From the NCBI RefSeq assembly GCF_013299165.1, contig NZ_JAAFKD010000014.1, positions 62,001 to 126,000 of the forward strand: a stretch of 64,000 bases of DNA, given 5' to 3'. A model generated the notes under the pieces. That model was not told the DNA's origin. It worked only from the letters and a program-made list of their open reading frames with translations, and did no database searches. The position numbers were made by a program, and so were the translations under genes. The DNA is from Microcoleus sp. bin38.metabat.b11b12b14.051. Lineage in GTDB: Bacteria; Cyanobacteriota; Cyanobacteriia; Cyanobacteriales; Microcoleaceae. Shown in pieces: positions 2,696 to 61,105 of the stretch. Positions within the stretch are counted from its first letter, which is position 1. Every line of letters starts with the position of its first letter.

Positions 2696-3058
2696 AAAAG
2701 AGAAGACGGCGGTTGAAACCGCTGCTATACAAACGATGTCCGCCTCCGCGGACTGAAGAGGATAACGTAATTTTAACGCCTTCGTCTTCAACCCCTCTGA
2801 GCTCGGGTTTTGTCTGTGTCGGCGCGGTTTCAACCGCCGTCTTCAACCCGCGGAGGCGAGTTTTGTCTGTGTCGGCGCGGTTTCAACCGCCGTCTTCAAC
2901 CCGCGGAGGCGAGTTTTGTCTGTGTCGGCGCGGTTTCAACCGCCGTCTTCAACCCCTCTGAGCTCGGGTTTTGTCTGTGTCGGCGCGGTTTCAACCGCCG
3001 TCTTCAACCCGCGGAGGCGGGTTTTGTCTGTGTCGGCGCGGTTTCAACCGCCCTCCGA
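2696..3058. repeat. Tandem 53-55 bp GC-rich palindromic repeats
   Basis: At least five units begin TTTTGTCTGTGTCGGCGCGG, at 2808, 2861, 2914, 2969 and 3022, giving periods of 53, 53, 55 and 53 bp. Each contains the short palindrome CGGTTTCAACCG. Two unit variants alternate, one with GCGGAGGCG and one with CTCTGAGCTCGG. An inverted, divergent unit occupies about 2702-2765. The family recurs at 37182-37440, 37745-37860, 38063-38085 and 39700-39935. The arginine-rich frames read through the array in this window are artefacts of the repeat. Confidence 0.85.
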
Positions 3059-4072: not shown

Positions 4073-4642
4073 TATCATGTCCTGTCAATTACCCGCAATA
4101 AAGGTTCGTAGTGAGGACTTTAGTCCTTCTTTCTGAATAAACTAAAGGTTCGTAGTGAGGACTTTAGTCCTTCTTTCTAAAGACAGTAAAGGTTCGTAGT
4201 GAGGACTTTAGTCCTTCTTTCTGAATAAAATAAAGGTTCATAGTGAGGACTTTAGTCCTTCTTTCTGAATAAAATCAAGGTTCGTAGTGAGGAATTTAGT
4301 CCTTCTTTCTGAATAAAATCAAGGTTCGTAGTGAGGAATTTAGTCCTTCTTTCTGAGGACAATAAAGGTTCGTACTTGATGCGGAAACTATTTTAAAATT
4401 ATCCGCGTTTATCGGCGTTAATCTGCCTGACATCTGCGGTTTTTATATCAAGTAAAGATTTATGCAATGAGTCTATTGCTCGCTGCCCAACTTCCCTCAA
4501 AAAATTATGAGTCGTGAGTTTTGGATTCCGAGTTTAGTCAAAAACTCAAACCTCAAAACTCAAGACTCAAAACTCTCTCAGCTTAAAAACTGATAGATTC
4601 AGTGCATCGTCCGACACCAACAATAGCACCAAGCAGCATCAA
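4073..4642. repeat. Six 44-bp direct repeats plus a dispersed ~85-bp element
   Basis: AAGGTTCGTAGTGAGGA starts at 4101, 4145, 4189, 4233, 4277 and 4321 with an exact 44-bp period, and a truncated seventh copy starts at 4365. Each unit carries the palindrome AGGACTTTAGTCCT or its AATT variant. Bases about 4390-4475 are the reverse complement of a related element at about 53905-53985 (ACCGCAGATGTC followed by GATAAACGC). A heptamer-like stretch (AAACTCAAAACTC) sits at 4535-4575. No gene is supported. Confidence 0.85.
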
Positions 4643-8696: not shown

Positions 8697-9653
8697 TTAG
8701 TTGTACTTGGCTCTTACTTGGGAAACAATCCACTCTGCCAAAACATTAACAATCAGCGTCATAATAAACAAAATTATTCCGGTGTACATCAGAGCAGACA
8801 CTTGCAATCCCGAAGCTTCGGCAAATTGATTTGCCATTAAAGAAGCAATAGTATTTGCAGGAGCTAGCACGGAAGCACTTAACTGATTGGAATTGCCAAT
8901 TAACAGAGTGGCTGCCATTGTTTCTCCCATCGCGCGGCCCAAGCCGAGCATGATTCCGCCGACAATCCCGGAAAAAGCTGCTGGTACGAGGACTCTAAAA
9001 ATTGTTGTCCAGCGAGTTGCTCCCAAACCTAGAGATGCTTGTCGCAATTCGGGCGGGAGACTGGCTAAAGAGTCGCGGGAGATAGCAGTAATAATGGGCA
9101 AAGTCATAATTCCCAGGATTACTCCGGCGGGTAACATTCCCGGCCCAACTGGCGGAGTGCTGAAAATTGGCAGCCATCCGAAGTTACCGTTGAGAAACTT
9201 TCCGATGCTGGTAAGTATGGGAATCAATACAGCAATTCCCCACAAACCGTAGACGACGCTCGGAATAGCGGCTAAAAGTTCTACTAAAAAAACTAAAGCT
9301 GTACGTACTGGCAGCGGTAAAAAGTCTTCGCTCAAAAAGATGGCAGTCCCTACTCCTAATGGTACTGCAATTAGGAGCGCGATCGCCGAACTGACGATCG
9401 TCCCATAAATCATCGGCAGCGCACCGTACTCATCTTTAACCGGATTCCAAGCACTGCTAAACAGAAAGCCCAAACCGTACTGTTGCATAGCTGGCAAGGC
9501 TCTGTAAGCAACGGTGAGCGCGATTATCAACAAAATTACACCAACTCCTATTCCCAAAATCCTAGTCAGCCAGATAAAGCCTTTGTCTAAGGACTTTTCT
9601 ATGGGAGAGCGAGAACGGCTCTCCAATTGAGCACTATTGTTATCTGAAGTCAT
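8697..9653 (-). CDS. pstC: Phosphate ABC transporter permease PstC
   Basis: A 318-residue permease partner of PstA. It has a cytoplasmic N-terminus, a first membrane segment at about residues 30-50 (LGIGVGVILLIIALTVAY), a broad extracytoplasmic loop and five further segments. The family motif GLGRAMGETMA is near residue 240. ATG 9653 is chosen because GAGGA lies 9 bases upstream; a TTG two codons earlier is the alternative. It is separated from pstS by 395 bp containing two direct repeats and a heptamer array, so pstC may have its own promoter. Confidence 0.95.
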   Translation of the reverse strand: MTSDNNSAQLESRSRSPIEKSLDKGFIWLTRILGIGVGVILLIIALTVAYRALPAMQQYGLGFLFSSAWNPVKDEYGALPMIYGTIVSSAIALLIAVPLGVGTAIFLSEDFLPLPVRTALVFLVELLAAIPSVVYGLWGIAVLIPILTSIGKFLNGNFGWLPIFSTPPVGPGMLPAGVILGIMTLPIITAISRDSLASLPPELRQASLGLGATRWTTIFRVLVPAAFSGIVGGIMLGLGRAMGETMAATLLIGNSNQLSASVLAPANTIASLMANQFAEASGLQVSALMYTGIILFIMTLIVNVLAEWIVSQVRAKYN

Positions 9654-10048
9654 ACACAAAAATCCTCAACAATATTAAGGAAAAATAGTCTTTTTAGTAG
9701 GGTTCAATGCACACAGCACCTGACCTGAAGCTAATTATATAGGGTTCAATGCACACTGCACCTTAACTGAACCTGAGCAGGAAAAACTGAGAAGGAACTA
9801 GAGAAATGAACAGGCATCCTGCCTGTTCCACAAGGAGGAAGAAAAGAAAAGAAAAGACAAGTGTTGACAACTGATGCACTGATTCTTATCTAAAATAAGG
9901 GCGGGTTGATTAATCCCCTGACTTTTTAGCAAATATTTATGGCAAAACTCGCCCCTACAGAAATATTTGTTTATTCTTTCTTCCTTCTTCCTTCTTCCTT
10001 CTTCCTTCTTCCTTCTTCCTTCTTCCTTCTTCCTTCTTCCCTCAATTA
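9654..10048. repeat. pstS-pstC spacer: direct repeats, palindrome and GGAAGAA heptamers
   Basis: AGGGTTCAATGCACAC occurs at 9699 and again at 9741, a 42-bp period. GAACAGGCATCCTGCCTGTTC at 9809-9829 is a palindromic module related to those in chlD (58.5 kb) and at 60.55 kb. Bases 9976-10041 are a heptamer array (GGAAGAA on the minus strand) that stops about 8 bp short of the pstS stop codon. No gene is supported. Confidence 0.8.
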
Positions 10049-11233
10049 CTATTTGCCAATCTCAATCTTGTAGTCGGGGCTGATGCCATCGGCTGCCAAA
10101 GCAACTTTTTCTTTGACGGTTTGGGGCAGAGGAACATAGCCCAATTCTGCACTAACTTTTTGACCTTCGGTTAAGCCGTATTCTACCATTGCCTCGATGG
10201 CTTTAGCTTTGTTGGGGTCAGCAACTTTTTTGGGGACGAGCATCCAAGAGTAGGTGACAATTGGATAGGATTCAGCACCTTCGGGGTCTTCGATAAATGC
10301 TCGCAGGTTTTCGGGTAGGGGAACAGTTGCTAAAGCTTTAGAAGCTGAATCGTCTGTAGGTGTGACAAAGCTGCCTGCTTTGTTTTGCAAAGATGCAAAT
10401 TTGACATTGTTGTTTTTGGCGTAGCCGTATTCTATGTAGCCGATGCTGCCGACGGTTTGCAAGATTTGGGCTGTGACGCCTTCGTTGCCTTTTGCACCAA
10501 TAAAAGTACCAGTTTTGGGCCACTCTACTGTTTTGCCGTCGCCTACTGCTGTTTTCCAGTCGGGGCTGATGGCACTCAGGTGTTTGGTGAAGACGGCAGT
10601 TGTGCCGCTACCGTCGGAACGGTGGACGACGGTGATGGCTTGGTCTGGCAATTTAGCGCCTGGGTTTGCTGCGGCAATTTTGGGGTCGTTCCATTTGGTA
10701 ATTTTACCTTGGAAGATTTCTGAGTAAACGTCTCTGGGTAGTTTGAGTTCGGGTACGTCTGGGAGGTTGTAGCCGATGACGATGCTGCCGGCTGTCATTG
10801 GCAACAAAAGGACGCCTTTGTCTGCTGGAACTTTGGCGATTTCGTCGTCTTTCATGGCGGTGTCGCTGGCACCAAAGTCTACTGTGCCTTTGGTGAATTG
10901 TTCGACTCCAGCGCCACTACCTACTGATTGATAGTTGATTTGTACTTTGGAGTTGATTTTGTTGAAGTCTTGAAACCAACGCTGATATAAGGGCGCGGGG
11001 AATGATGCGCCTGCTGCTGTGATGGCTACGTCTGAGGCTAGGGCGAGTTTGGTGTTGGCTGCTGGGGCTGCAACGGGGGCTGCGCTGGGGGAGGCGGCGG
11101 TGTCGCCGGGGCTGGGGCTGCTACTGGTTGTGCTGCTGCCGCCGCCGCAAGCTGTTAAGCTCAGAGCGATCGCCATTGCGGAAATTGCGGTAGTCAGACG
11201 GTTTGAATTAATCAAGTTGATACGAAAAAGCAT
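10049..11233 (-). CDS. pstS: Phosphate-binding lipoprotein PstS
   Basis: A 394-residue periplasmic phosphate-binding component of the Pst importer. It has a signal peptide with lipobox LTACGG (about residues 27-32), a Ser/Ala/Pro-rich linker, then the PstS domain with AAGASFPAPLYQRWF, GSGAGVEQF, FGASD and VHRSDGSGTT, which together bind phosphate. ATG 11233 is used because it gives a normal signal peptide; a non-ATG start at 11290 would add a non-signal N-terminus. It is followed by pstC, pstA and pstB. Pho-box-like repeats lie 57-102 bases upstream of this start. Confidence 0.95.
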   Translation of the reverse strand: MLFRINLINSNRLTTAISAMAIALSLTACGGGSSTTSSSPSPGDTAASPSAAPVAAPAANTKLALASDVAITAAGASFPAPLYQRWFQDFNKINSKVQINYQSVGSGAGVEQFTKGTVDFGASDTAMKDDEIAKVPADKGVLLLPMTAGSIVIGYNLPDVPELKLPRDVYSEIFQGKITKWNDPKIAAANPGAKLPDQAITVVHRSDGSGTTAVFTKHLSAISPDWKTAVGDGKTVEWPKTGTFIGAKGNEGVTAQILQTVGSIGYIEYGYAKNNNVKFASLQNKAGSFVTPTDDSASKALATVPLPENLRAFIEDPEGAESYPIVTYSWMLVPKKVADPNKAKAIEAMVEYGLTEGQKVSAELGYVPLPQTVKEKVALAADGISPDYKIEIGK

Positions 11234-11289
11234 AGGTATACGAAATTTGCGATCGTTATACAGGTGTCCCGCACCAGCATATCGCGCCA

Positions 11290-11335
11290 AAGTAAAGGTT
11301 AGGTTAAGAATCTTTACATTTAATCACATTTTAAG
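11290..11335 (-). promoter_or_regulatory. Candidate Pho (SphR) box upstream of pstS
   Basis: Read on the minus strand, octamers CTTAAAAT (11335-11328), ATTAAATG (11324-11317), CTTAACCT (11308-11301) and CTTTACTT (11297-11290) form two pairs with 11-base spacing. CTTAACCT fits the cyanobacterial Pho consensus PyTTAAPyPyT/A, which occurs as direct repeats with 3-base gaps. The position upstream of pstS supports phosphate-starvation control, but binding is inferred only. Confidence 0.6.
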
Positions 11336-11667
11336 ATTAATATTATTAATCAATCAAATCGATTGATGAGCTTGACAGATGTCATATGATAATATTTCGC
11401 TGATAAATTGGTAGAAAAATAAGTATTCGATTTTGACGATCGCGCAAAAGTCCCGATTAGGCGATCGGCAGATCGAGACTTGAGAACCATAAAACCCTAC
11501 AATGGTGGTTGTTTTGACAAGGTGCTAGTATGGAGAACTTAAAAGCTGCGGGCATTCCAGCTTGCATCTGACGAACACCATGTGACGAACATTGTTTGAT
11601 GATACAGAAACCGCCCTGACGGTTAAAACGCTCTCGTATTGCACAAGCATCAAAAGTCGATCGCAAC
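11336..11667. other. Spacer between divergent pstS and bioY; no gene seen
   Basis: An inverted repeat (AATCAATC with GATTGAT) lies around 11348-11364, next to the Pho-box candidate. The remainder up to the heptamer array shows no supported gene, RNA or terminator. Confidence 0.35.
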
Positions 11668-11751
11668 TTCCTTCTTCTTTCTTCCTTCTTCCTTCTTCCT
11701 TCTTCCTTCTTCCTTCTTCCTTCTTCCTTCTTCCTTCTTCCTTCTTCCTTC
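11668..11751. repeat. CTTCTTC heptamer array ending 6 bp before bioY
   Basis: About twelve copies of a 7-bp unit (CTTCTTC/CTTCCTT phases) run without a break from 11668 to 11751, and the bioY ATG is at 11758. The same unit occurs in this orientation or the reverse at 5558, 9976, 19803, 45826 and 55332. Confidence 0.9.
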
Positions 11752-11757
11752 GTTATA

Positions 11758-12336
11758 ATGCCTGCTCCTATCGAATTAATCTGGGCTGTTATTGGTTTGC
11801 TCCTAACGATAGGAGGTACTTTTTTGCCTGCATCTGTGACAATGCCGATCGGGTTTTGGGACGATCGCGGACTTCAGGCGTACTCTTTAGGTGTTACTTA
11901 TCAAATTGGAGCCGTCTTGCTCGTAGGCTGCATGGGTGGCAAAAATGCTGCTGCTCTCTCACAAATTGCCTATTTGGTATTAGGATTGACTTTGTGGCCA
12001 GTTTTTGCTCAAGGTGGCGGCATCGGCTATCTCAAAGAAGCGAGTTTTGGCTATTTGCTGGGTTTTGTGCCTGGTGCTTGGGTGTGCGGCTGGGTGGCTT
12101 TTAAGGTGGCTTCGCGGTTGGAATCGATGGCTTTTAGTTGTTTATGTGGTTTATTTACAGTTCACGCGATCGGCTTAATTTATCTGATTTTTAGTTACTT
12201 GCTGATTCCGGGGAAAAAAATACCTTTATTCGATGAAATTCTGAAATATTCGGTTTATCCCATGCCGGGACAATTGGCTGTAGTTTGTGCGATCGCACTT
12301 CTGTCATTTACTTTGCGCCGCTTGATGTTTTATTAA
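11758..12336 (+). CDS. bioY: BioY-family biotin transporter S component
   Basis: A 192-residue integral membrane protein with about six helices, matching the BioY substrate-binding component of ECF biotin transporters. The segment GGGIGYLKEASFGYLLGFVPGAWVCGWV covers the family-typical region (GYLLGF-P-AW). It lies upstream of lspA, an association I recall from cyanobacteria. The ATG follows directly after a heptamer array (CTTCCTTCGTTATA then ATG), with no recognisable ribosome binding site, so translation initiation is unusual or the mRNA start lies within the array. No dedicated EcfAT genes are visible nearby. Confidence 0.82.
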   Translation: MPAPIELIWAVIGLLLTIGGTFLPASVTMPIGFWDDRGLQAYSLGVTYQIGAVLLVGCMGGKNAAALSQIAYLVLGLTLWPVFAQGGGIGYLKEASFGYLLGFVPGAWVCGWVAFKVASRLESMAFSCLCGLFTVHAIGLIYLIFSYLLIPGKKIPLFDEILKYSVYPMPGQLAVVCAIALLSFTLRRLMFY

Positions 12337-12642
12337 TTAGTCATTGGGCATTGGGCATTGGGCATTGGGCATTGGGCATTGGTCATTGGTCATTAGTCAT
12401 TAGTCATTGGTCATTGGTCATTGGTCATTGGTCATTGGTCATTTGTCATTTGTCATTTGTCATTGGAGGTTATGGCGGAAAGCATCCAAGGTACAGAGTC
12501 CCCGGATTGATTCGTGGTGTCAATTCTTGAATTCTCCAATCTAAAATCGATATTGGGTTATACTGTTATTGCACAACGAGAGAGTCATCTCGCTGCGGCC
12601 AATAAATAAATATCCGATGCCCTATCTTCTATTCCCTAATCC
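12337..12642. repeat. CATTGGG/CATTGGT heptamer array between bioY and lspA
   Basis: Bases 12342-12466 hold about 17 copies of a 7-bp unit drifting from CATTGGG through CATTGGT and CATTAGT to CATTTGT. A second CATTGGG array lies inside the FAD oxidoreductase gene at 19587. The remaining ~175 bases before lspA show no gene. Confidence 0.88.
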
Positions 12643-17894: not shown

Positions 17895-18138
17895 GGACTT
17901 TAGTCCGCAAGAAGGACTGAAGTCCTCACTACAAACTTATTTTAGAGGTTCGATCGTTCGGACTTTAGTCCGCAAGAAGGACTGAAGTCCTCACTACAAA
18001 CTTATTTTAGAGGTTCGATCGTTCGGACTTTAGTCCGCAAGAAGGACTGAAGTCCTCACTACAAACTTATTTTAGAGGTTCGATCGTTCGGACTTTAGTC
18101 CGCAAGAAGGACTGAAGTCCTCACTACAAACTTATTTT
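17895..18138. repeat. Four 65-bp direct repeats with palindromic core
   Basis: GGACTTTAGTCCGCAAGAAGG begins at 17895, 17960, 18025 and 18090, an exact 65-bp period. Each unit contains GGACTTTAGTCC and later GGACTGAAGTCCTCACTAC, and the joining piece is GAGGTTCGATCGTTC. It belongs to the same family as the arrays at 4101 and 23108. Confidence 0.9.
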
Positions 18139-18176
18139 AATTCCTAGATTAAACCGAGCAGTGTCGGCACTGCTGT

Positions 18177-22130: not shown

Positions 22131-23111
22131 ATGCCAACAAATCAACAAATTGTACTACCAAAAATGGGCTGCGGTACATGGGCCTGGGGAAACCGACTGC
22201 TTTGGGGTTACGATGAAAGTATGGACGCGGAATTACAAGCCGTGTTCAATCTTTCTGTTAATAATGGTGTCACTTTATTTGATACAGGTGATTCCTACGG
22301 AACCGGGAAATTAAACGGACGCAGCGAGCAACTTTTGGGGCAGTTTTCTCAACAATATCAAGGTGCAAATCAAGATAATATTTGTATTGCAACAAAACTA
22401 GCTGCTTATCCTTGGAGACTCACCCGAAAATCCATGATATCGGCTGGAAAAGCCTCGGCTGCACGCCTCGGAAAGAATGTGGATTTGGTGCAAATGCACT
22501 GGTCTACGGCTAATTATGCCCCTTGGCAAGAGGGGGCTCTTTTGGACGGTTTGGCTGACCTTTACGAGCAAGGATTGGTCAAGGGAGTGGGTTTATCTAA
22601 TTACGGGCCGAAACGATTGAAATGGGTGCATCAAAGATTTAGTTCGCGCCAAGTTCCAATTGTTACTTTACAAGTGCAATATTCGCTACTTTCTACCTAT
22701 CCGGTGACTGAACTCGGATTGAAAGATGTTTGCGATGAATTGGGTATTAAATTGATTGCTTACAGTCCTTTAGCTTTGGGTTTGCTGACTGGTAAATATT
22801 CTGAAAATGGTATACTTCCTAAGGGTATTCGAGGTTTGGCTTGCAAGCAGTTATTGCCGGGAATGCAATTACTTTTGGATTGTTTGCGAGAAATAGCGAC
22901 ATTCAGAAATAAGACTGTTTCGCAGGTAGCAATCAATTGGTGTATCTGTAAAGAAACTATTCCGATTCCTGGAGCTAAATCTGCGGCGCAAGCGATGGAT
23001 AATATTGGTGCTTTGGGCTGGAAGTTGGACTCGGGGGAGGTTGCGGAATTGGATAAGGTGGCGGCGAGTGTAGATAAGAAAATGGTGCAGAATATCTTTC
23101 AAACGAGATAA
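22131..23111 (+). CDS. Aldo/keto reductase
   Basis: A 326-residue NAD(P)H-dependent reductase with the family tetrad visible: Asp and Tyr in FDTGDSYGTG (about 49-56), Lys in IATKLA and His in LVQMHWS. VGLSNYGPKRL and the cofactor-binding end VSQVAINWCICKETIPIPGAKSAAQ also match. It resembles plant and cyanobacterial aldo/keto reductases whose physiological substrate is often unknown. ATG 22131 follows an AT-rich leader without a strong ribosome binding site. Large palindromic repeats begin almost at its stop codon. Confidence 0.9.
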   Translation: MPTNQQIVLPKMGCGTWAWGNRLLWGYDESMDAELQAVFNLSVNNGVTLFDTGDSYGTGKLNGRSEQLLGQFSQQYQGANQDNICIATKLAAYPWRLTRKSMISAGKASAARLGKNVDLVQMHWSTANYAPWQEGALLDGLADLYEQGLVKGVGLSNYGPKRLKWVHQRFSSRQVPIVTLQVQYSLLSTYPVTELGLKDVCDELGIKLIAYSPLALGLLTGKYSENGILPKGIRGLACKQLLPGMQLLLDCLREIATFRNKTVSQVAINWCICKETIPIPGAKSAAQAMDNIGALGWKLDSGEVAELDKVAASVDKKMVQNIFQTR

Positions 23112-23320
23112 CCAGGTTCGTAGTGAGGACTTCAGTCCGCAAACAAGAAGGACTGAAGTCCTCACTACGAACCCATAGATAACCAGGTTCGTAGTGAGGA
23201 CTTCAGTCCGCAAACAAGAAGGACTGAAGTCCTCACTACGAACCTATAAATAACCAGGTTCGTAGTGAGGACTTCAGTCCGCAAACAAGAAGGACTGAAG
23301 TCCTCACTACGAACCTATGA
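23108..23320. repeat. Three 71-bp units, each a near-perfect long hairpin
   Basis: ATAACCAGGTTCGTAGTGAGG starts at 23108, 23179 and 23250. In each unit a 23-base arm beginning GTTCGTAGTGAGGACTTCAG is perfectly inverted after an 11-base loop (GCAAACAAGAA). The array fills the space between the convergent aldo/keto reductase and amidohydrolase genes and could act as a bidirectional terminator block. Confidence 0.92.
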
Positions 23321-25520: not shown

Positions 25521-27218
25521 CTAGGGTGAAGGCGAGGGTGCGGGAGTTGGTGCAGGCTCCGGTGACGGCGCGGGAGTTGGCGCGGGATCCGGCGACGGTG
25601 CGGGAGTTGGTGCAGGTTCCGGCGAGGGCGCGGGAGTCGGTGCAGGAGTCGGTGCAGGTGCGGGAGTTGGTGCTGGGGTAGGTTTGGGAGTCGGTGAAGG
25701 TGCGGGAGTTGGTGCGGGAGTCGGTGAAGGTGCCGGAGCCGGTGCTGGGGTAGGTTTGGGCGTAGGTTTGGGCGTAGGTTTGGGCGTAGGGGTAGGTTTG
25801 GGCGTTGGTGTTGGTTCCGGCACAGGCGCTGGGCTTGGTTCCGGCACAGGCGCTGGGCTTGGTTCCGGCACAGGCGCTGGGCTTGGTTCCGGCAAAGGTG
25901 CTGGGCTTGGTTCCGGCAAAGGTTCTGGGCTTGGTTCCGGCAAAGGTGCTGGGCTTGGTTCCGGTACAGGTGCTGGAGTTGGTAGTGGACTTAGTTCTGG
26001 GCTTGGGCTTGGTAAAGGTTCTGGGTTTGGTATTGGCGTTAGTCTCGGCGTCGGATTTATGATGACTGGTGGTGGCGCTGTGGGAGTAGGTTTGGGCGTC
26101 GGTTTGTTGAGAAATGAGCCTACTAATGCCCAGGAACCAAACCCTGTCAAGATGACTAAGCCTGTTAGCAGTCCGATCGCAGCAGCGGGATTATCCCACA
26201 AAGAGCCACCAGCCGCCTCAATTAGCGGATCTGGCTGGTTTTGCGGGCCGGGACTCAGGGGCACCATCGGCTCGGACTCGGGTGGCCGGCCCACGGCTAC
26301 CGTTGCGATTAGCGAAGCATTTGACGGCACGACTGCTGACGCGGGTGGTGCAGTGGGGACGTTAGATTGAGGGTTAGGATTAGTTTGGGTGTCGAGTGCT
26401 TGGGCGACTTCGCTGACAGATTGATATCGATCGCCCGGAGAGCGATTTAACATCCGATTCAACACCAAAGCCAAACCCGGGCTTACCTGCACTCGCTGCT
26501 GCCAATTCCACTGTAGCGTTGTTTGATCCAGCAATTCCTGCGGTTCTTTGCCCGTCAGCAGGACGATCGCCGTTACAGCTAAAGCATACAGGTCACTGCT
26601 CGCCGTAGCGCGTCCGCTTTGTAACTGTTCCATCGGCGCGTAGCCAATTTTACCCACAGTTGTCGCATGGGCTGTGCCTTCGGGAGACTGCACCTTGGTG
26701 GCGAGTTCCTTCACCACTCCAAAGTCAATCAGTACCGGCAACTTGTCCATTTCTCGGCGGATAATATTTTCTGGCGAGATGTCGCGGTGGATGATGCCCC
26801 GGGCGTGGATGTGAGCCAGTACCGGCAGCATTTGCCTTATAAATACTAAAACTTCGGCTTCGCTGAAGGTGCTACCTGTGGAAGTGCGATCGAGCAAAAG
26901 TTCGCGGTAAGTCATCCCTTCCACGTAATCCTGCACCAAAAACAAACGTTGATTTTCTTCAAATATTGCCCGAAACTGGGGAATTTGCGGGTGGGCAATT
27001 TGGTAAAGTATAGCCGCCTCTCTTTGAAACAATTCCTTCGATTTTTCCAAAACGTAAGGCCCGCTTTGCATTGGAATCAATTCCTTCAGGGCGCAGCGTT
27101 CTTTAAACCGCCCTTCATCTTCTACTAAATAAGTCCGGCCAAATCCCCCTTGACCTAAAATACTTACCAAGCGGTAGCGGTTTTGTAGTAGAGTTCCAAT
27201 AGCAATAGGTGGCTGCAT
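25521..27218 (-). CDS. Ser/Thr protein kinase with membrane anchor and long Pro-rich repeat tail
   Basis: A 565-residue Hanks-type kinase. The catalytic domain (about 15-275) has a G-loop [17 protein letters not shown] with the ATP-binding Lys, [11 protein letters not shown] (about 140) and the DFG in [10 protein letters not shown] (about 163), so it looks active. A linker follows, then a single membrane segment at about 343-365 ([19 protein letters not shown]). The outer tail of about 190 residues consists of Pro-Glu-Pro-Ser-Pro-Ala-Pro type repeats that shift to Pro-Thr-Pro-Lys. The extended tail could span the periplasm or wall. The antisense glycine-rich frame over the tail is a by-product of the codon repeat. 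Confidence 0.92.
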
Positions 27219-27487: not shown

Positions 27488-27658
27488 TGCCAACTGCCAA
27501 CAGTCAACAGTCAACAGTCAACTGTCAACCACCAACTGCCAACTGCCAACTGTCAACCGTCAACTGCCAACAGTCAACAGTCAACAGTCAACAGTCAACC
27601 GCCAACAGTCAACCGCCAACCGCCAACCGCCAACAGTCAACCGCCAACAGTCAACTGT
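27488..27658. repeat. Long CAACAGT/CAACTGC/CAACCGC heptamer array
   Basis: About 24 units of 7 bp with two variable positions (CAACAGT, CAACTGC, CAACCGC, CAACTGT) run up to and into the 3' end of the YqeY-family gene, whose TGA stop (27651-27653) and last codons lie in the array. Confidence 0.9.
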
Positions 27659-39694: not shown

Positions 39695-40006
39695 TGCTAG
39701 AAAACCGGGCGGTTAGTTGAAGAAGACAAGGCGGTTAGAAACCGCGTCTACACAAACACTCACGCGCCTCCGCGGGTTGAAGAAGACAGGGCGGTTAGAA
39801 ACCGCGTCTACACAAACACTCACGCGCCTCCGCGGGTTGAATACCGGGCGGTTTCAACCGCACGTCTGATCTTATCTTCAGTCCGCGGAGGCGGACATCG
39901 TTTGTGTAGACGCGGTTTCAACCGCCGTCTAATCTGCCTGATCTCACGCACCCTCTGGTGTTATAATTATTTGAAATCATCATCGAACATAAACATCACA
40001 TCCATA
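39695..40006. repeat. GC-rich palindromic repeats between kinase and chelatase genes
   Basis: Two nearly identical tandem units (GGCGGTTAGAAACCGCGTC, ACACAAACACTCACGCGCC, CCGCGGGTTGAAGAAGAC) start at about 39729 and 39789. A third, differently oriented unit ends at 39931. The remaining ~75 bases before the chelatase start must hold its promoter. Confidence 0.85.
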
Positions 40007-45876: not shown

Positions 45877-45900
45877 AACCCCCCTTAAAAAAGGGGGGTT
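45877..45900 (-). terminator. Hairpin after psbEFLJ, also a repeat-family member
   Basis: AACCCCCCTT (45878-45887) pairs with AAGGGGGGTT (45891-45900). Read from psbJ on the minus strand it is followed by TTTTAATTATAAAA, so it can serve as an intrinsic terminator. The same CCCCCCTTA-AAGGGGGG palindrome is found twice inside chlD near 59.8 kb, so it may be an adopted mobile repeat. Confidence 0.6.
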
Positions 45901-55331: not shown

Positions 55332-55395
55332 TTTTCTTCCTTCTTCCCTCTTCCTTCTTCCCTCTTCCTTCTTCCCTCTTCCTTCTTCCTTCTTG
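55332..55395. repeat. CTTCTTC/CTTCCCT heptamer array
   Basis: About nine 7-bp units end 3 bases before the stop codon of the permease gene at 55398. It is the same family as 5558, 9976, 11668, 19803 and 45826. Confidence 0.88.
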
Positions 55396-55397
55396 CT

Positions 55398-56735
55398 TCA
55401 AACCAAAAACCGAATAGTTACATAAACAGCCGCAGCAACCAATTGCAAAGCCATCACCGGAAGCCCGTAACGCAGAAAAGTTTGAAAAGAAATCCGGCGC
55501 CCGTGCAGCTCAGAAATTCCCGCAGCCACAATATTAGAAGAAGCTCCTACCAAAGTGCCATTTCCGCCTAAAGTTGCTCCGTACATCATCGCATAAAACA
55601 GCGGTAGTACAGTCGGTGGAAACTGCCCTGCAAAATCTGGATCTAGCACTTGGGCTGGTGCGAGCCCGACATTCACAACATATTGTTTGAGCAGCGGTAC
55701 CATCGCCACCACCAGCGGAATATTTGGCACTACACTCGACATCAAGCCCACAAAAAACAACAGAGTCAAAGAACCCAAAAAGATATTTTTACCTAAAATA
55801 GCTGCTAAAAATCCCGACATCCCAGCGATGACTCCGGTTTTTTCTAGACCACCAATCAGCACAAATATCGACATGAAAAATAGCAGCGTACTCCAATCTA
55901 AATCCCGCAAAATATTGGTGACAGAATCTATTTTGGAATGGTGAGCCAAGAGCATTGATAAAGCTGCTCCCAATAAAGCAACGGCTGCCGGTGAAATTGG
56001 GACTGGCAACGACTCTCCCACTACAAAAAATGTCAGCACGAAAGTGATAATTAAGCCGCCCACCACTAAGATTCGCGGGTGATTGATTTTTGGGTGCGGC
56101 AAATTTTCCAAATTATCTAATTCTTTGTGCCAGATTTCGGGGAACATCCAAGGCAGCATAACTAAGATGACTCCTACGGCAATTGCCCCACCTAAACTTA
56201 ACTTTAACAGGTAATCTGCAAAGCTCATGTTAATCGCATCGCCGACTATGAATGTCGCCGGATCTCCCACGATTGTCAGCAAACCTGAACTGTTAGCAAC
56301 AAATACCATTAAAATCAGCAGCGGCACAAAATCTACACCGACTTCTTGTGCCATTGGCGGAATTAACGGTGCTAGCAGCATGACTGTAGTGGCATTTGGC
56401 AAAACTGCACAAATCGGGGTAGTAATTGCGACAATTCCCAGTAGGAGATTTTTGCCTTTGCCTTTAGCTAATAGCACCATTTGAGTTGCTAAGTAATCGA
56501 ATACTTTGGTAGGCTCAAATGCTCTCACCATAACCATGACTCCGAAAAATAAGCCTAGGGTTCCATGACTACGACTGATATATTCGATCGCATCCTTTAA
56601 CGTCATCACGTGGGTGAAAACCAGAATCAGGGCTCCCAGAAATGCCGCAACAGTTAGGTGTATCCATTCTGTAATTACTAAAAAAATTACACCGATAAAT
56701 GTTGCAGCAGCGATCGCAGCTTGCACGTTTTCCAT
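55398..56735 (-). CDS. ArsB/NhaD-type ion transporter
   Basis: A 445-residue permease of the ion-transporter superfamily (ArsB/NhaD/P-protein branch) with about 11-12 membrane helices. Typical regions are AVLPNATTVMLLAPLI (about 115-130), FVANSSGLLTIVGDPATFIVG, SVVPNIPLVVAMVPLL and TLGGNGTLVGASSNIVAAG, the last two forming the inverted-repeat transport motifs. Candidate substrates are Na+/H+, arsenite or dicarboxylate; the NxT-VG-P signatures favour the NhaD/ArsB group but cannot settle the ion. It stands alone, with a heptamer array touching its stop. Confidence 0.85.
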   Translation of the reverse strand: MENVQAAIAAATFIGVIFLVITEWIHLTVAAFLGALILVFTHVMTLKDAIEYISRSHGTLGLFFGVMVMVRAFEPTKVFDYLATQMVLLAKGKGKNLLLGIVAITTPICAVLPNATTVMLLAPLIPPMAQEVGVDFVPLLILMVFVANSSGLLTIVGDPATFIVGDAINMSFADYLLKLSLGGAIAVGVILVMLPWMFPEIWHKELDNLENLPHPKINHPRILVVGGLIITFVLTFFVVGESLPVPISPAAVALLGAALSMLLAHHSKIDSVTNILRDLDWSTLLFFMSIFVLIGGLEKTGVIAGMSGFLAAILGKNIFLGSLTLLFFVGLMSSVVPNIPLVVAMVPLLKQYVVNVGLAPAQVLDPDFAGQFPPTVLPLFYAMMYGATLGGNGTLVGASSNIVAAGISELHGRRISFQTFLRYGLPVMALQLVAAAVYVTIRFLV

Positions 56736-56977: not shown

Positions 56978-58228
56978 ATGGGCAATATCTGCCAACTTCA
57001 CCCCCACGCAGGCATTATGGACTACAGCCAACTGCTCGCCGACAAAACTGACACTATCCTCAAAAACTGGATTGAAGCAGTACGCTTGGATCGGAAAATT
57101 GAAACCGCTGACACCCTACCGCACTCTGCGATCGAAAATCACATCCCTCGCCTGCTGGAGGCGATGGCCACAGTGCTTTCCCAATATCAAAATAGTGAAA
57201 TTGGTATCATTATTAAAGCCAGTTTAGAACATGGCTTCCTCAGAGCAGAACAAGGCTACGATCCCGCAGAAGTAGCGCGGGAATACCATTTATTACGTCA
57301 AGTGATATTTGCCAACTTAGAAGTAGAATTGCTAGCAGGAACAACAACAGAAGTAGTCAGAGCTTTTAGGCTCATAGATTCGGTAGTAGATGAAGCTATT
57401 GCTCAGTGTTTTAACAGTTATGTTTCCCAGCGATTGAGCGAACTGCAAAAAATTAAAAGTCAGTTAAAACTCACGAATCAAGAACTAAATCGGCTAGTCT
57501 GTGCTAACCAAGAAAATCTCTCCTATTTTGCTCACGAACTCAAAACACCTCTCAACTCAATCATCGGTTATTCAGAGCTATTTTTGCGAAAAGGAAAGGC
57601 GCAATCCCAAATCAAAGATACCCTTCCCGGCATCGAACAAATCGAGCGAGTATTGCGTAACGGCCGACAATTACTGCGCCTGATTAACGACGCCCTCGAA
57701 CTTTCCCGCGCCGATGCCGGAAAAATTCAACTTCAACTGAGACGAACTAATGTACAATCTATAATTAATACAGTAGTAGAAGTGATGCAGCCAATGGCTG
57801 ATGCTAAGGGATTAAAGCTCGCTGTTACAACTGACTGCTGCCCTACAGAAGTAATCTCCGACGGACAGCGCCTGCAACAAATTGTCACCAACCTGCTGAG
57901 CAATGCCATTCGCTACACAGAATCTGGTAGGATTGAATTAAGTTGCTACCAAGCTGGAGAAGCAAATTGGGCGATCGCCATTACAGATACCGGCATCGGC
58001 ATTGCCCCCGAAGATACCAACCGCATCTTTGACCCCTTCTTTCAAGCCGGAGCAGAAACAGGCAAACAGCACTTTCCCCCCGACAGCACCGGCCTAGGAT
58101 TAGCCATAGTATCGCGGCTCGTTACACTGCTGCAAGGCAAAATCGAGCTAGAATCAGAAATCGGAGTCGGCTCAACTTTTACCGTGATTCTCCCCTTAGA
58201 AGTTAAAATACTTCAAGCCGTAAGCTAA
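56978..58228 (+). CDS. Sensor histidine kinase with RsbRD-like N-terminal domain
   Basis: A soluble kinase of about 416 residues. The N-terminal ~150 residues (MDYSQLLADKTDTILKNWIEAV, GFLRAEQGYDPAEVAREYHLLRQVI) resemble the RsbRD N-terminal helical sensor domain. A short coiled coil (ELQKIKSQLKLTNQELNRL) leads to the HisKA box FAHELKTPLNSIIGYSE (phosphorylatable His about 190). HATPase_c has NLLSNAIRYT, DTGIGIAPED and GLGLAIVSRL. No membrane segment or receiver domain is seen, so it signals to a separate regulator. The start may be 57017 (MDYSQ); 56978 adds 13 residues. It ends 42 bp before chlD on the same strand. Confidence 0.9.
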   Translation: MGNICQLHPHAGIMDYSQLLADKTDTILKNWIEAVRLDRKIETADTLPHSAIENHIPRLLEAMATVLSQYQNSEIGIIIKASLEHGFLRAEQGYDPAEVAREYHLLRQVIFANLEVELLAGTTTEVVRAFRLIDSVVDEAIAQCFNSYVSQRLSELQKIKSQLKLTNQELNRLVCANQENLSYFAHELKTPLNSIIGYSELFLRKGKAQSQIKDTLPGIEQIERVLRNGRQLLRLINDALELSRADAGKIQLQLRRTNVQSIINTVVEVMQPMADAKGLKLAVTTDCCPTEVISDGQRLQQIVTNLLSNAIRYTESGRIELSCYQAGEANWAIAITDTGIGIAPEDTNRIFDPFFQAGAETGKQHFPPDSTGLGLAIVSRLVTLLQGKIELESEIGVGSTFTVILPLEVKILQAVS

Positions 58229-58270
58229 ACATTAAGTTCAAATTCTAAGATCCGAAATTCCGAAAATCCT

Positions 58271-60523
58271 ATGCCCGCAGCCAACCTTAGCCCTTCCAGC
58301 ACAGCCTTTCCCCTCACCGCCGTAGTCGGCCAAGAAGCAATCAAATTAGCCCTACTTTTAGCAGCAGTCGATCCCGGATTGGGAGGAGTTGCGATCGCAG
58401 GTCGTCGCGGTACCGCAAAATCAGTAATGGCCCGCGCCTTGCATTCCCTACTTCCACCAATTGAAATTATTAAAGACTCTTTTTGCAACGCCGAACCAGA
58501 TGAACTCCTAGTGGAACAAGCATCTTACCTGTTACCAGAAAATAACGGGCAAGATGCCAGTTCCACAGTAGAAAATAACGGGCAAGATGCCAGTTCCACA
58601 GTAGAAAATAACGGGCAAGATGCCAGTTCCACAGTAGAAAATAACGGGCAAGATGCCAGTTCCCAAAATACTAATTTTCCAGATACTGAAATAATTGCTA
58701 CACCATTTATTCAAATTCCATTAGGCGTCACAGAAGACAGACTCTTAGGTTCCGTCGATGTCGAACAATCAGTAAGATTCGGTCAAACAGTATTTCAACC
58801 AGGACTTTTGGCCCAAGCAAATCGAGGCGTACTTTATGTAGATGAAATCAACCTCCTCGATGACAATATTTCTAACCAATTGCTGACAGTATTAACCGAA
58901 GGTCGCAACCAAATAGAGCGCGAAGGCATTAGCTTCCAACACCCCTGCAAACCTCTATTTGTTGCCACCTATAACCCCGAAGAAGGCCCTCTTAGAGAAC
59001 ATTTGCTCGATCGCATCGCGATCGTCCTTTCAGCCGACGCAGCCCTCGAACTACAAGAAAGAGTCTATGCAGTAGAACAAGCTTTATCCTACTCCAGCTC
59101 CCCCGAACAATTCCTCAACCAATACGCCGAAGACACAGACAACCTCAAAACCCAAATCATCCTCGCCAGAGAATGGCTAAAAGATGTCACTATCAGTCGC
59201 GAACAAATAGCTTACCTAGTAGAAGAAGCCATCCGCGGCGTAGTTCAAGGACATCGCGCTGAAATCTTCGCAGTCCGAGTCGCCAAAGCCGCCGCCGCCA
59301 TTGAAGGACGCACAGAAGTTAACGCCGAAGACCTCCGCCGCGCCGTAGAATTAGTCATCGTACCCCGCGCCACCGTCATCCAAACTCCCCCAGACGAAAA
59401 CTCACCTCCTCCTCCCCCGCCACCACCGCCACAAAAGCAGCAGTCAGAACAAGAACAAGACGAACCCGAAAACGAACAAGAAGACGAAGAAGACCAAGAA
59501 GATGAAGACAAACCCGAACCTGAAGAAGAACCAGAAAAAGATACCATTCCCGAAGAATTTCTATTCGACCCCGAAGGCGTAATTCTCGACCCCGACGTGC
59601 TATTCTTCGCCCAATCCGCCAACCGCCAAGGCAAATCGGGCAGTAGAACCACCATTTTCTCCGAAGATAGAGGCCGTTATGTCAAGCCAGTATTGCCCAA
59701 AGGCCCCGTGCGCCGCATCGCCGTTGACGCGACTCTCCGGGCGGCCGCACCCTACCAAAAAGCACGCCGCGACAGGAATTCAAACCCCCCCCAACCCCCC
59801 CTTACCAAGGGGGGGCAAGAGGCGAGTCAACCCCCCCTTAGTAAGGGGGGGCAAGAGGCGAGTCAGCGCCGGGTATTTGTGGAACAGGGAGACATTCGGG
59901 CGAAGCGCTTGGCCAGAAAAGCTGGGGCTTTAGTCGTCTTTGTTGTCGATGCTTCCGGTTCCATGGCCCTCAACCGGATGCAGTCGGCTAAAGGTGCAGT
60001 CATGCAGCTACTCACCGAAGCTTATCAAAGTCGTGACCAAGTGGCGCTCATTCCCTTTCGCGGAGAACAAGCGGAAGTATTGTTACCGCCAACTCGCTCG
60101 ATAGCCTTAGCCCGCAAGCGTTTGGAAAGACTACCTTGCGGCGGTGGTTCGCCCCTCGCCCACGGTTTGACTCAGGCGGTGCGTGTGGGAGTTAACGCGC
60201 GGCAGTCTGGAGATATCGGTCAAGTGGCGATTGTTGCGATTACTGACGGACGCGGTAATATTCCTTTGGCTCGTTCTTTGGGCGAACCGATTTTAGATGG
60301 CGAAAAGCCGGATATTAAGAAGGAATTGTTAGAAATTGCTGCCAAAATTCGCGGTTTGGGAATGCAGTTGTTGGTGATTGATACTGAGAGTAAGTTTATC
60401 TCGACTGGTTTTGCGAAGGAATTGGCTAAGACTTCTGGCGGCAAATACTATCATTTGCCGAAAGCATCTGAACAGTCGATCGCAGCTATGACTAAAAATG
60501 CTCTGCGCGACGCGATCGGCTAA
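58271..60523 (+). CDS. chlD: Magnesium chelatase subunit D with two in-frame repeat insertions
   Basis: A 750-residue ChlD, the AAA+/integrin-I subunit of Mg-chelatase for chlorophyll synthesis. AAA+ region: [24 protein letters not shown] (44-51), [13 protein letters not shown] and [22 protein letters not shown] Pro run and acidic linker follow (about 378-425), then the VWA domain with MIDAS DASGSM (about 560). At residues about 90-133 it carries four copies of an 11-residue unit [11 protein letters not shown], and at about 505-530 [22 protein letters not shown]. Both are dispersed palindromic DNA repeats read in frame. The first lies in the AAA+ domain between conserved blocks, so it must be tolerated as a loop. 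Confidence 0.95.
58538..58660. repeat. 33-bp repeats inserted in chlD (family 1)
   Basis: Units beginning GAAAATAACGGGCAAGATGC start at 58538, 58571, 58604 and 58637. The core, on the minus strand GGAACTGGCATCTTGCCCGTT, is the same family as GTGGCACAGGCATCTTGCC at 60557 and GAACAGGCATCCTGCCTGTTC at 9809. The 33-bp period keeps the reading frame. Confidence 0.92.
59784..59856. repeat. Palindromic CCCCCCTTA-AAGGGGGG repeats inserted in chlD (family 2)
   Basis: Two tandem units (CCCCCCTTACCAAGGGGGGG and CCCCCCTTAGTAAGGGGGGG, each followed by CAAGAGGCGAGTCA) lie between the linker and the VWA domain. The same palindrome occurs after psbJ at 45877. Confidence 0.9.
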
Positions 60524-60556
60524 AATCCTTAAATAGAGATTCACCAGCCTGGATTG

Positions 60557-60748
60557 TGGCACAGGCATCTTGCCTGTGGCCTAAACTGTGGCACAGGCAT
60601 CTTGCCTGTGGCCTAAACTGTGGCACAGGCATCTTGCCTGTGGCCTAAACTGTGGCACAGGCATCTTGCCTGTGGCCTAAACTGTGGCACAGGCATCTTG
60701 CCTGTGGCCTAAACTGTGGCACAGGCATCTCGCCTGCGGGGCCCTTAA
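60557..60748. repeat. Six 32-bp direct repeats after chlD
   Basis: GTGGCACAGGCATCTTGCCT starts at 60557, 60589 and then every 32 bp, six times. The last copy is diverged (ATCTCGCCTGCGGGG). It is the same palindrome family as insertion 1 inside chlD, here outside the gene and out of frame length (32 rather than 33 bp). Confidence 0.92.
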
Positions 60749-60778
60749 CAATCACAAACTCTGATTTTTGTCACCACT

Positions 60779-61105
60779 CTAACTTTTAACTCTCGCTCTG
60801 CGGCGAGTCACCACCAGCGAACCCGCCACCAAACTCAATCCCCCCAACATTGAAGGCTCAGGAATTTTTACCGGCAGAGGCACCCGATTTACCGTTATCG
60901 GAATCGGGGTAGGAGTAGTTGTAGCTTGCCGGGGTTGACCGGTCTGAGCCAGCAGCAAATTTTGGGAACCCAGCGATGGAGCAGCAGTATGAACGGCCCG
61001 GACATTAGCTGCAAGGGCAGCTTCACCGCCGGAAATAACGGCGGCCGCAGCTAATACAATCCCGGCGGCCGATGGCAGTAATTTGCGAGCAAAAAAGGTG
61101 GGCAT
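60779..61105 (-). CDS. Small exported PEP-CTERM protein
   Basis: A 108-residue protein with a signal peptide (FARKLLPSAAGIVLAAAAVISGGEAALAAN, about 5-34) and a C-terminal PEP-CTERM-type sorting signal: the PEP motif in KIPEPSMLGGL, a short hydrophobic helix (SLVAGSLVV) and a basic tail (TRRRARVKS). The middle is low-complexity, Thr/Pro-rich. Such proteins are processed by an exosortase and often belong to the extracellular matrix. No exosortase gene is in the window. Confidence 0.8.
   Translation of the reverse strand: MPTFFARKLLPSAAGIVLAAAAVISGGEAALAANVRAVHTAAPSLGSQNLLLAQTGQPRQATTTPTPIPITVNRVPLPVKIPEPSMLGGLSLVAGSLVVTRRRARVKS

Follow-up and report, generated by a model that had tools for sequence, protein, structure and literature searches.

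The best-known examples of protein-coding palindromes come from reduced intracellular bacteria, in which weak selection could account for them. In 2008, Elhai reportedly described small mobile repeats of cyanobacteria. Among described systems, the closest to the locus studied here are the RPEs, which are protein-coding palindromes of Rickettsia, and the protein-coding palindromes of Wolbachia and Methanocaldococcus (Ogata 2000, 2002, 2005; Suyama 2005), reviewed in PMC2229807, PMC10969869 and PMC2996958. As these three reviews describe them, RPEs are dispersed palindromes of ~100-150 bp that also occur in frame in unrelated conserved genes, in non-structured segments, and a host enzyme that carries one can stay active, as in the case of guanylate kinase. 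REP and REPIN sequences are described as short hairpins in inverted pairs, with many copies per genome (Bertels and Rainey, PMC3116915), and GTAG REPs are known in cyanobacteria according to the account of GTAG/CGTC REPs in PMC3733652. Cyanobacterial MITEs on record include Nezha and MITEs that inactivate mcy genes (PMC3733652, PMC10969869). Mobile repeats inside cyanobacterial genes are also known, in the form of MITEs within Synechococcus genes of unknown function (described in PMC10969869).

The locus considered here is a chlD gene in the window, by which we mean the whole 64,000-nucleotide stretch of DNA that was analysed. The host genome comprises 7.07 Mb in 64 contigs, and the closest named relatives, as judged by ChlD, belong to Microcoleus and Tychonema. 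The gene, identified by a profile match to NCBIfam TIGR02031 (781 bits, cut-off 500), carries palindromic repeats of two unrelated families, here called A and B. The features are as follows.

58271-60523, + strand: chlD, an ORF of 750 aa, magnesium chelatase subunit D
58511-58566, no strand given: imperfect 56-bp palindrome, a decayed + copy of A followed by the first - copy of A, the remnant of an inverted pair
58537-58663, + strand: site 1, four tandem 33-bp family-A units, in frame, inside the AAA+ domain
58537-58569, 58570-58602, 58603-58635 and 58636-58663, + strand: the single units of site 1, with an 11-aa reading frame
59792-59827 and 59828-59863, + strand: site 2, two 36-bp family-B units, extending over 59786-59865 with the outer C-rich arm
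60555-60736, + strand: six 32-bp family-A units 3' of the chlD stop codon, in the opposite orientation to site 1
9811-9825, + strand: single family-A copy with one mismatch in the 11-bp core, between the ORFs 8697-9659 and 10049-11290

At site 1 the period is 33 bp (3.8 copies, 100% matches at the DNA level), the fourth unit being truncated to 28 of its 33 bp. The two units of site 2 are 94% alike over 59792-59863, and the site encodes 26 residues between the acidic/proline linker and the VWA domain. The array 3' of the gene has a 32-bp period (5.7 copies, 99% matches), and the A units inside the gene run the opposite way (25 nt, 88% complementary). An earlier note on this DNA had described four A units and two B units in frame in chlD, six A units right after the gene and a single A copy in the pst spacer. 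The first two descriptions are borne out by tandem-repeat periods of 33 and 36 bp in the gene and by the array that follows it. The third stands as regards the copy itself, while the name of the spacer rests on our reading of ORFs 8697-9659 and 10049-11290 as putative pstC and pstS. The earlier observation is therefore confirmed, and its interpretation is partly supported.

By sequence alignment, site 1 falls between two blocks that match ChlI 6l8d (chain 13-81 and 108-325), and site 2 falls before the block that matches the BchD VWA domain 2x31. The role of the encoded ChlD segments as linkers, as the earlier note has it, is putative. The AlphaFold model of ChlD is poor overall (mean pLDDT 47, pTM 0.30). 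Its lowest-pLDDT stretches include both inserts, and no secondary structure is predicted at either of them; the low values agree with disorder and prove little. Trypsin is predicted from the sequence to yield one ~89-residue peptide (69-157) around site 1, which makes the tryptic-peptide check of the earlier note a poor one. On the - strand, the site-2 palindrome overlaps with one terminator-like site; a terminator reading was rejected, as such sites are no commoner than in shuffles (4 found, 4.5 expected). Rfam returned sub-threshold microRNA models only, the best with an E of 0.039, far below gathering scores.

Both families are found throughout the genome. The family-A core GGCATCTTGCC has 200 matches and the family-B core CCCCCCTTANNAAGGGGGG has 175, against none for either reversed control; exact B palindromes score once per strand, which means that there are fewer than 175 B places. 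The family-A unit reads TTGTGGAACRGGCATCTTGCCYGTTCC, and family B consists of nested C-rich and G-rich stems around TTANNAA. A third palindrome family, GGGCGGGCACRGGGGCACCGCCC, occupies 51 sites in the same genome (≤2 mismatches; control 0). Repeat units measure 27-40 bp and the inverted pair 56 bp. Chance similarity was ruled out by reversed-pattern and codon-shuffle controls (1000 shuffles, added outgroups). The exact A core occurs at least once in 74 of 80 genomes of the order, in many of them only a handful of times, near the control. Family A is abundant in parts of the genus Microcoleus and patchy outside it. For instance, the core was counted 573 times in Tychonema bourrellyi and 465 times in Microcoleus vaginatus HSN003. 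The counts are 48, 20 and 8 in Scytonema NIES-4073, Scytonema hyalinum and Scytonema RU_4_4, 6 in Brasilonema, and 3 and 4 in two Planktothrix.

The window also holds other repeats. Tandem arrays of a further palindrome, GTTCGTAGTGAGGACTTTAGTCC, lie at 4097-4374, 17895-18139 and 23108-23318, with other copies elsewhere in the window, and at 45879-45897 there is another palindrome that resembles B, departs from the B pattern at 3 positions and has a longer loop (CCCCCCTTAAAAAAGGGGGG). Tandem arrays of GC-rich 53-bp and 60-bp units at 2783-3052 and 39716-39841 are similar by eye. An in-frame array of 12, 24, 30 and 72-bp units at 25531-26043 encodes a 13-residue stretch. Heptanucleotide tandem repeats (TTCCTTC, ATTGGTC, CAACAGT) occur at 9974-10040, 11667-11751, 12336-12466, 27498-27655 and 55334-55399; we take these to be of the kind known as STRR in cyanobacteria.

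We examined 113 A and 108 B copies, taken around the first 100 listed places of each family and in the window, after leaving out duplicates and copies less than 300 nt from the end of a stretch. Copies were counted as in-gene by a rule of our own (spanning ORF ≥200 aa, codon score ≥0.1). By this rule 26 of the 113 A copies (23%) and 47 of the 108 B copies (44%) lie in genes, compared with 1201 of 1898 random positions (63%). Both families are depleted in genes relative to random positions, as expected if most gene hits are purged. There were 33 host ORFs other than ChlD, and all 20 that we chose for Pfam matched known families, including methionine synthase, P-type ATPase, NAD synthase, an anthranilate-synthase-type enzyme, RtcB, LigA, urease alpha, CysS, MutL, TopA and ChlH. 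In-frame copies were found in homologues of CysS, TopA, LigA, MutL, NadE, MetH, TrpE and ChlH, which supports the earlier note in that the repeats lie in frame in other core genes too. Read from the sequences, dispersed palindromes in frame in chlD and other core genes encode stretches of strain-variable length. The CysS insert has no counterpart residues in the solved homologue 8qhp. In LigA (L166, 1310-3679), ~127 residues precede the CELKIDG motif, compared with 10 in the solved 2owo, and the TopA insert sits in a short variable stretch. The structure alignment of MutL was too patchy for use. The ~127-residue segment of LigA contains two B units, which are 71 bp from each other and use different frames.

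Selection for frame, which the earlier note had suggested from the 33-bp period inside the gene and the 32-bp period outside it, is upheld by the wider set of arrays. Arrays with multiple-of-3 spacings only account for 14 of 16 in-gene arrays and 3 of 19 outside (Fisher 3e-5), a contrast that is partly circular because the in-gene rule requires an open frame, and whose counts are not independent because the repeat copies are related. All six A frames are open, so A arrays could show other spacings. Over codon-score cut-offs from 0.08 to 0.15 the p value ranges from 3e-5 to 4.5e-3, and stricter codon scores give 10 of 12 in-gene arrays versus 7 of 23 outside (p 0.0045). The exceptions are LigA (71 bp) and L193 (69, 68, 61 and 60). 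The GQDAxST frame takes 9 of the 18 gene-frame uses of in-gene A copies, and PLxKGG frames take 17 of the 27 of in-gene B copies. Together, these data support a constraint on the repeat frame inside genes.

Loop and linker lengths were counted in 120 listed ChlD proteins of 7847 matches (118 for the linker). Among those listed, the loop has 45 aa in 60 proteins, 46 in 43, 57 in 10, 68 in two and 79 in one, with four others. The 79-aa loop, the only one among the 120, is that of this strain, and one of the two 68-aa loops (P0052) has units of another wording. Linkers measure 40 aa in 31 of the 118 listed proteins, 28 in 25, 25 in 20, 21 in 9, 52 in 8, 36 in 6 and 39 in 5, and lengths of 74 and 76 aa occur once each. 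Linkers of 28, 40, 52 and 76 aa mostly correspond to 1, 2, 3 and 5 B-type units, as judged from peptides only. Across the homologues the loop steps by 11 aa and the linker by 12 aa. Two checks proposed in the earlier note were run. The number of units differs among strains; for instance, P0004, whose ChlD is 97% identical, has one A unit and no B. In the alignment of ChlD homologues, with its steps of 11 and 12 aa, the inserts are not, as a whole, ancestral and length-invariant. Within Microcoleus vaginatus (species names as given by the source, units counted in peptides), P0007 and P0008 have two linker units and P0038, P0055, P0058 and P0062 have one.

It is very improbable that these patterns are an artefact of assembly or alignment. 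GC-rich hairpins are difficult to assemble, and several draft ChlD genes are interrupted by a contig break around residues 365-428, within the proline/acidic stretch. However, the periodicity of site 1 is an exact 33 bp and in frame, the length steps are regular across the 120 listed proteins, and related loops and linkers occur in independent assemblies, including the single-contig chromosomes L031 and L092.

The history of site 1 can be followed in the ChlD loop. The 12 residues that precede the four A units represent a decayed A copy of opposite orientation, at about 58511-58536, where it encodes VEQASYLL. The DNA of this inverted pair (58509-58568) folds into a single hairpin (-16.8 kcal/mol, z -8.2), which none of 200 shuffles equalled. 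In the Tychonema loop L035 the left A copy is nearly intact (local score 24/27) and the right copy is clear (18). We tested the loops with 1000 codon shuffles per row and called a sequence A-like if at most 5 of 1000 shuffles were as good, in either orientation. By this measure A-like sequence is present, in one or both orientations, in 20 of 30 Microcoleus-clade loci, and 14 of these have both. The site-1 units correspond to the right half of an inverted pair of greater age; the first pair is no new arrival, and the three extra identical units are recent tandem growth. The earlier note's reading as ongoing spread thus needs amending for chlD, where the tandem growth is recent but the first A pair can be traced in the 20 of 30 loci. 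We read this distribution as one insertion of an A pair early in Microcoleus, which would have decayed later in many lineages. Since 10 of the 30 loops keep no A sequence at the 5/1000 level, we infer, rather than observe, this single ancestral insertion and its decay.

Outside the Microcoleus clade, the loop is A-like in 2 of 26 rows, both from Scytonema (L059 and L074). Their left copies score 1/1000 each, and their right copies 90 and 615 of 1000. The two rows form one clade (100/100), and the sister rows L048 and L049 are without A. The folds of the two loops have z values of -2.5 and -4.0, compared with -0.7 for the empty loop of L049. This is probably a second, independent insertion, of which we are less sure than of the one in Microcoleus. 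The ChlD loop has seen at least three unlike tandem growths, which are the 33-bp units of this strain, 27-bp units in Tychonema and its relatives, and 27-bp units of another wording in L034.

A rival explanation is that the inserts are adaptive parts of ChlD, either tuned linkers and loops or regulatory mRNA hairpins, that were kept and amplified by positive selection. The presence of A-type sequence in the same loop of Microcoleus and two sister Scytonema, the three or more unlike growths there (one 33-bp and two 27-bp wordings) and the preference for one polar A frame would all fit. We nonetheless find this explanation improbable, because the segments are missing, decayed or varied in length in close relatives whose ChlD is open, the same families occur in many unrelated proteins, and copies are under-represented in genes.

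At site 2, the number of B-type units before the VWA domain ranges from 0 to 5 within the genus. A protein tree of 140 ChlD rows had too little signal (6 of 119 branches starred), and DNA trees were used instead; the chlD tree has 32 rows, with repeat columns removed and 5 of 37 loci left out. On this tree the presence of B changes at least four times under a strict DNA pattern and five times under a loose one, and the number of units changes five (strict) or seven (loose) times, all of these changes being unpolarised. The sister rows of this strain are without B, and L039 (three B units) and L047 (none) are sisters at 100/100. The linkers of L035, L041-L043 and L057 have a palindrome of the third family between B-like arms. 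In one MAG (G014, 86% complete), the reading frame of chlD is lost at site 2 (L062, 4331-4400, and L107), where a B unit and a third-family palindrome lie and the ORFs have 464 and 268 aa. This is either a broken allele or an assembly error in hairpins.

Site 2 may have arrived with an allele of another Microcoleus by homologous recombination, or may have been lost in the sister lineages, and we put the chance of this at a little under even. This strain and L039 share a B-bearing linker with an RRDRN flank, which is of the M. vaginatus type, while the sisters have RRQ(K/R)N and no B. The unpolarised shifts in B presence on the tree (at least four under the strict pattern, five under the loose one) also fit exchange or loss. 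However, the RRDRN background is itself polymorphic for B, which is absent from P0080 and P0102, so the flank and the insert are incompletely linked. Gain, loss and allele exchange at this site cannot be told apart by the present data.

The direction of change is clearest in ChlH, where the sequences make a strong case for gain. We compared 26 rows, 4 of 30 loci having been left out (three partial, one paralogue). B is absent in 24 of the 26 rows (24 of 25 relatives), whose sequence here is LPPEQERGVAAG or some other short form. The two exceptions, this strain with one unit and L343 with three, stand in different parts of the tree. The simplest reading would be two B gains at one site; the parsimony is unpolarised with many branches open, and allele exchange could link the two. 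Comparison by eye with the empty allele L318 shows ~38 nt in place of ~11 (net 27) and no sign of a target duplication at the junction. Because host sequence is replaced and no target duplication is visible, "insertion" is a simplification.

Other genes show a similar variety of states. TopA has units in 5 of 26 genomes (L371 and L375 are one genome), with at least five changes of presence, and states occur with C-rich and G-rich arms yet no B hairpin. In CysS (30 loci, L246-L275, from 27 genomes), the repeat site is the loop after the KMSKS stretch, which holds 0 to 4 units of B or the third family, strain by strain, and is empty in four genomes. The third family is read there in two frames, GGHGGTAPT and GAGTGAPPL. 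In NadE, a QDA-type unit was seen by eye in 12 of 29 genomes.

Template switching at existing arms would fit both the ChlH junction and the TopA states. A bolder reading, which we hold tentatively and consider doubtful, is that the Microcoleus ChlD, ChlH, CysS, TopA and NadE loops are standing hot spots. Palindromes of at least three unrelated families would be copied into them repeatedly by template switching at coding sequences with C-rich and G-rich or otherwise quasi-palindromic arms, with host sequence replaced, growth and shrinkage by whole codons and no transposase. If true, this would be a transposase-free route that adds segments to essential proteins of a free-living phototroph.

Families A and B could instead be REP/REPIN or MITE units that a RAYT-type Y1 transposase or a TIR transposase mobilises, with chlD having caught insertions, which we judge unlikely. 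It is true that A copies are frequently in inverted pairs ~31-45 bp apart and that the genome has 10 Y1_Tnp matches. Furthermore, 20 of the 113 A copies lie within 90 bp of the terminal inverted repeat GACCTCTTGCAAAA, which forms a MITE of ~119 bp, so part of family A may move by transposase. However, these 20 are all among the 87 copies outside genes, none of the 26 in-gene copies is near the repeat, and GACCTCTTGCAAAA has no match at 58001-61000. The 10 Y1_Tnp loci (2-3 kb each) include one with an A core and one with a B palindrome, the consensus of the 113 A and 108 B copies has no GTAG/CGTC tag beside the stems, and the ChlH event is a replacement in which target duplication is not visible. 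A TIR transposon as the carrier of the chlD copies was therefore rejected, the terminal repeat being absent there, although it holds for the 20 of 113 A copies. With the A core at 1 of 10 Y1_Tnp loci and the B palindrome at 1 of 10, a Y1/RAYT link is unsupported as well.

The MITE itself (TAGACCTCTTGCAAAA...TTTTGCAAGAGGTCTA) often has an inverted A-hairpin pair inside (L140, L152, L161, L215, L217, L221 and others). We counted 49 of its ends (≤1 mismatch; control 2). By eye the ends of this TIR element are TA-like, and no autonomous copy was found among the 30 loci looked at.

The best-supported reading is that dispersed non-autonomous palindromes are copied, tolerated in frame in variable loops and then expanded in tandem. 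We consider it likely that two unrelated hairpin families, dispersed genome-wide, are kept within genes in variable loops, in frame and reading as polar peptides, and that chlD received its pair early and its additional units recently; copying, slippage and purging would be the processes behind this. The repeats would persist in genes at variable loops where the frame is kept and the peptide read-out is polar. Early in the genus, an inverted pair of A hairpins would have entered the AAA+ loop of ChlD and decayed in many lineages. In this strain, the right half of the pair would have been tandemly duplicated to give four 33-bp units. New copies may arise by template switching or by recombination with another copy, rather than by cut-and-paste transposition, and tandem growth may be slippage promoted by the hairpin. 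Selection would mainly remove events that break frame or structure, the peptide itself being roughly neutral.

Searches of the open-access literature turned up neither a description of in-frame palindromes in cyanobacteria nor any account of the A and B DNA and peptide strings. The present case is the same phenomenon, with copy variation among strains, in a free-living cyanobacterium, in genes for chlorophyll synthesis, tRNA charging, DNA ligation and topoisomerase. The question of whether mobile palindromes create new protein segments becomes testable with culturable strains and assayable enzymes. GQDAxST and PPLxKGG stretches in cyanobacterial proteins of this sort can stem from repeats, and it would be wrong to take them for conserved motifs.

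Several known systems resemble the Microcoleus families in part. As in coding VNTRs, the number of units varies among strains in whole codons, but here the repeating element is a dispersed palindrome of which the genome has many further copies. The likeness to MITEs is that part of family A is internal to a ~119-bp TIR element, whereas the in-gene copies examined have no such terminal repeats and leave the reading frame of known core genes intact. Like the REP/REPIN sequences of the published accounts, family A hairpins occur in inverted pairs with many copies in the genome. Unlike them, the Microcoleus families lack a GTAG/CGTC tag by the stems and are not clearly associated with a Y1 transposase, and a fair proportion of their copies lies in frame in genes rather than outside them. 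The RPEs, as the reviews portray them, share with the Microcoleus families that both are dispersed palindromes found in frame in unrelated conserved genes. The Microcoleus units differ from that portrait in being 27-40 bp long, paired or tandem, and variable in number by strain, with at least three unrelated families in a free-living phototrophic host. Judged against RPEs as described, the Microcoleus repeats appear to work like the protein-coding palindromes of Rickettsia, in a shorter form that also expands in tandem.
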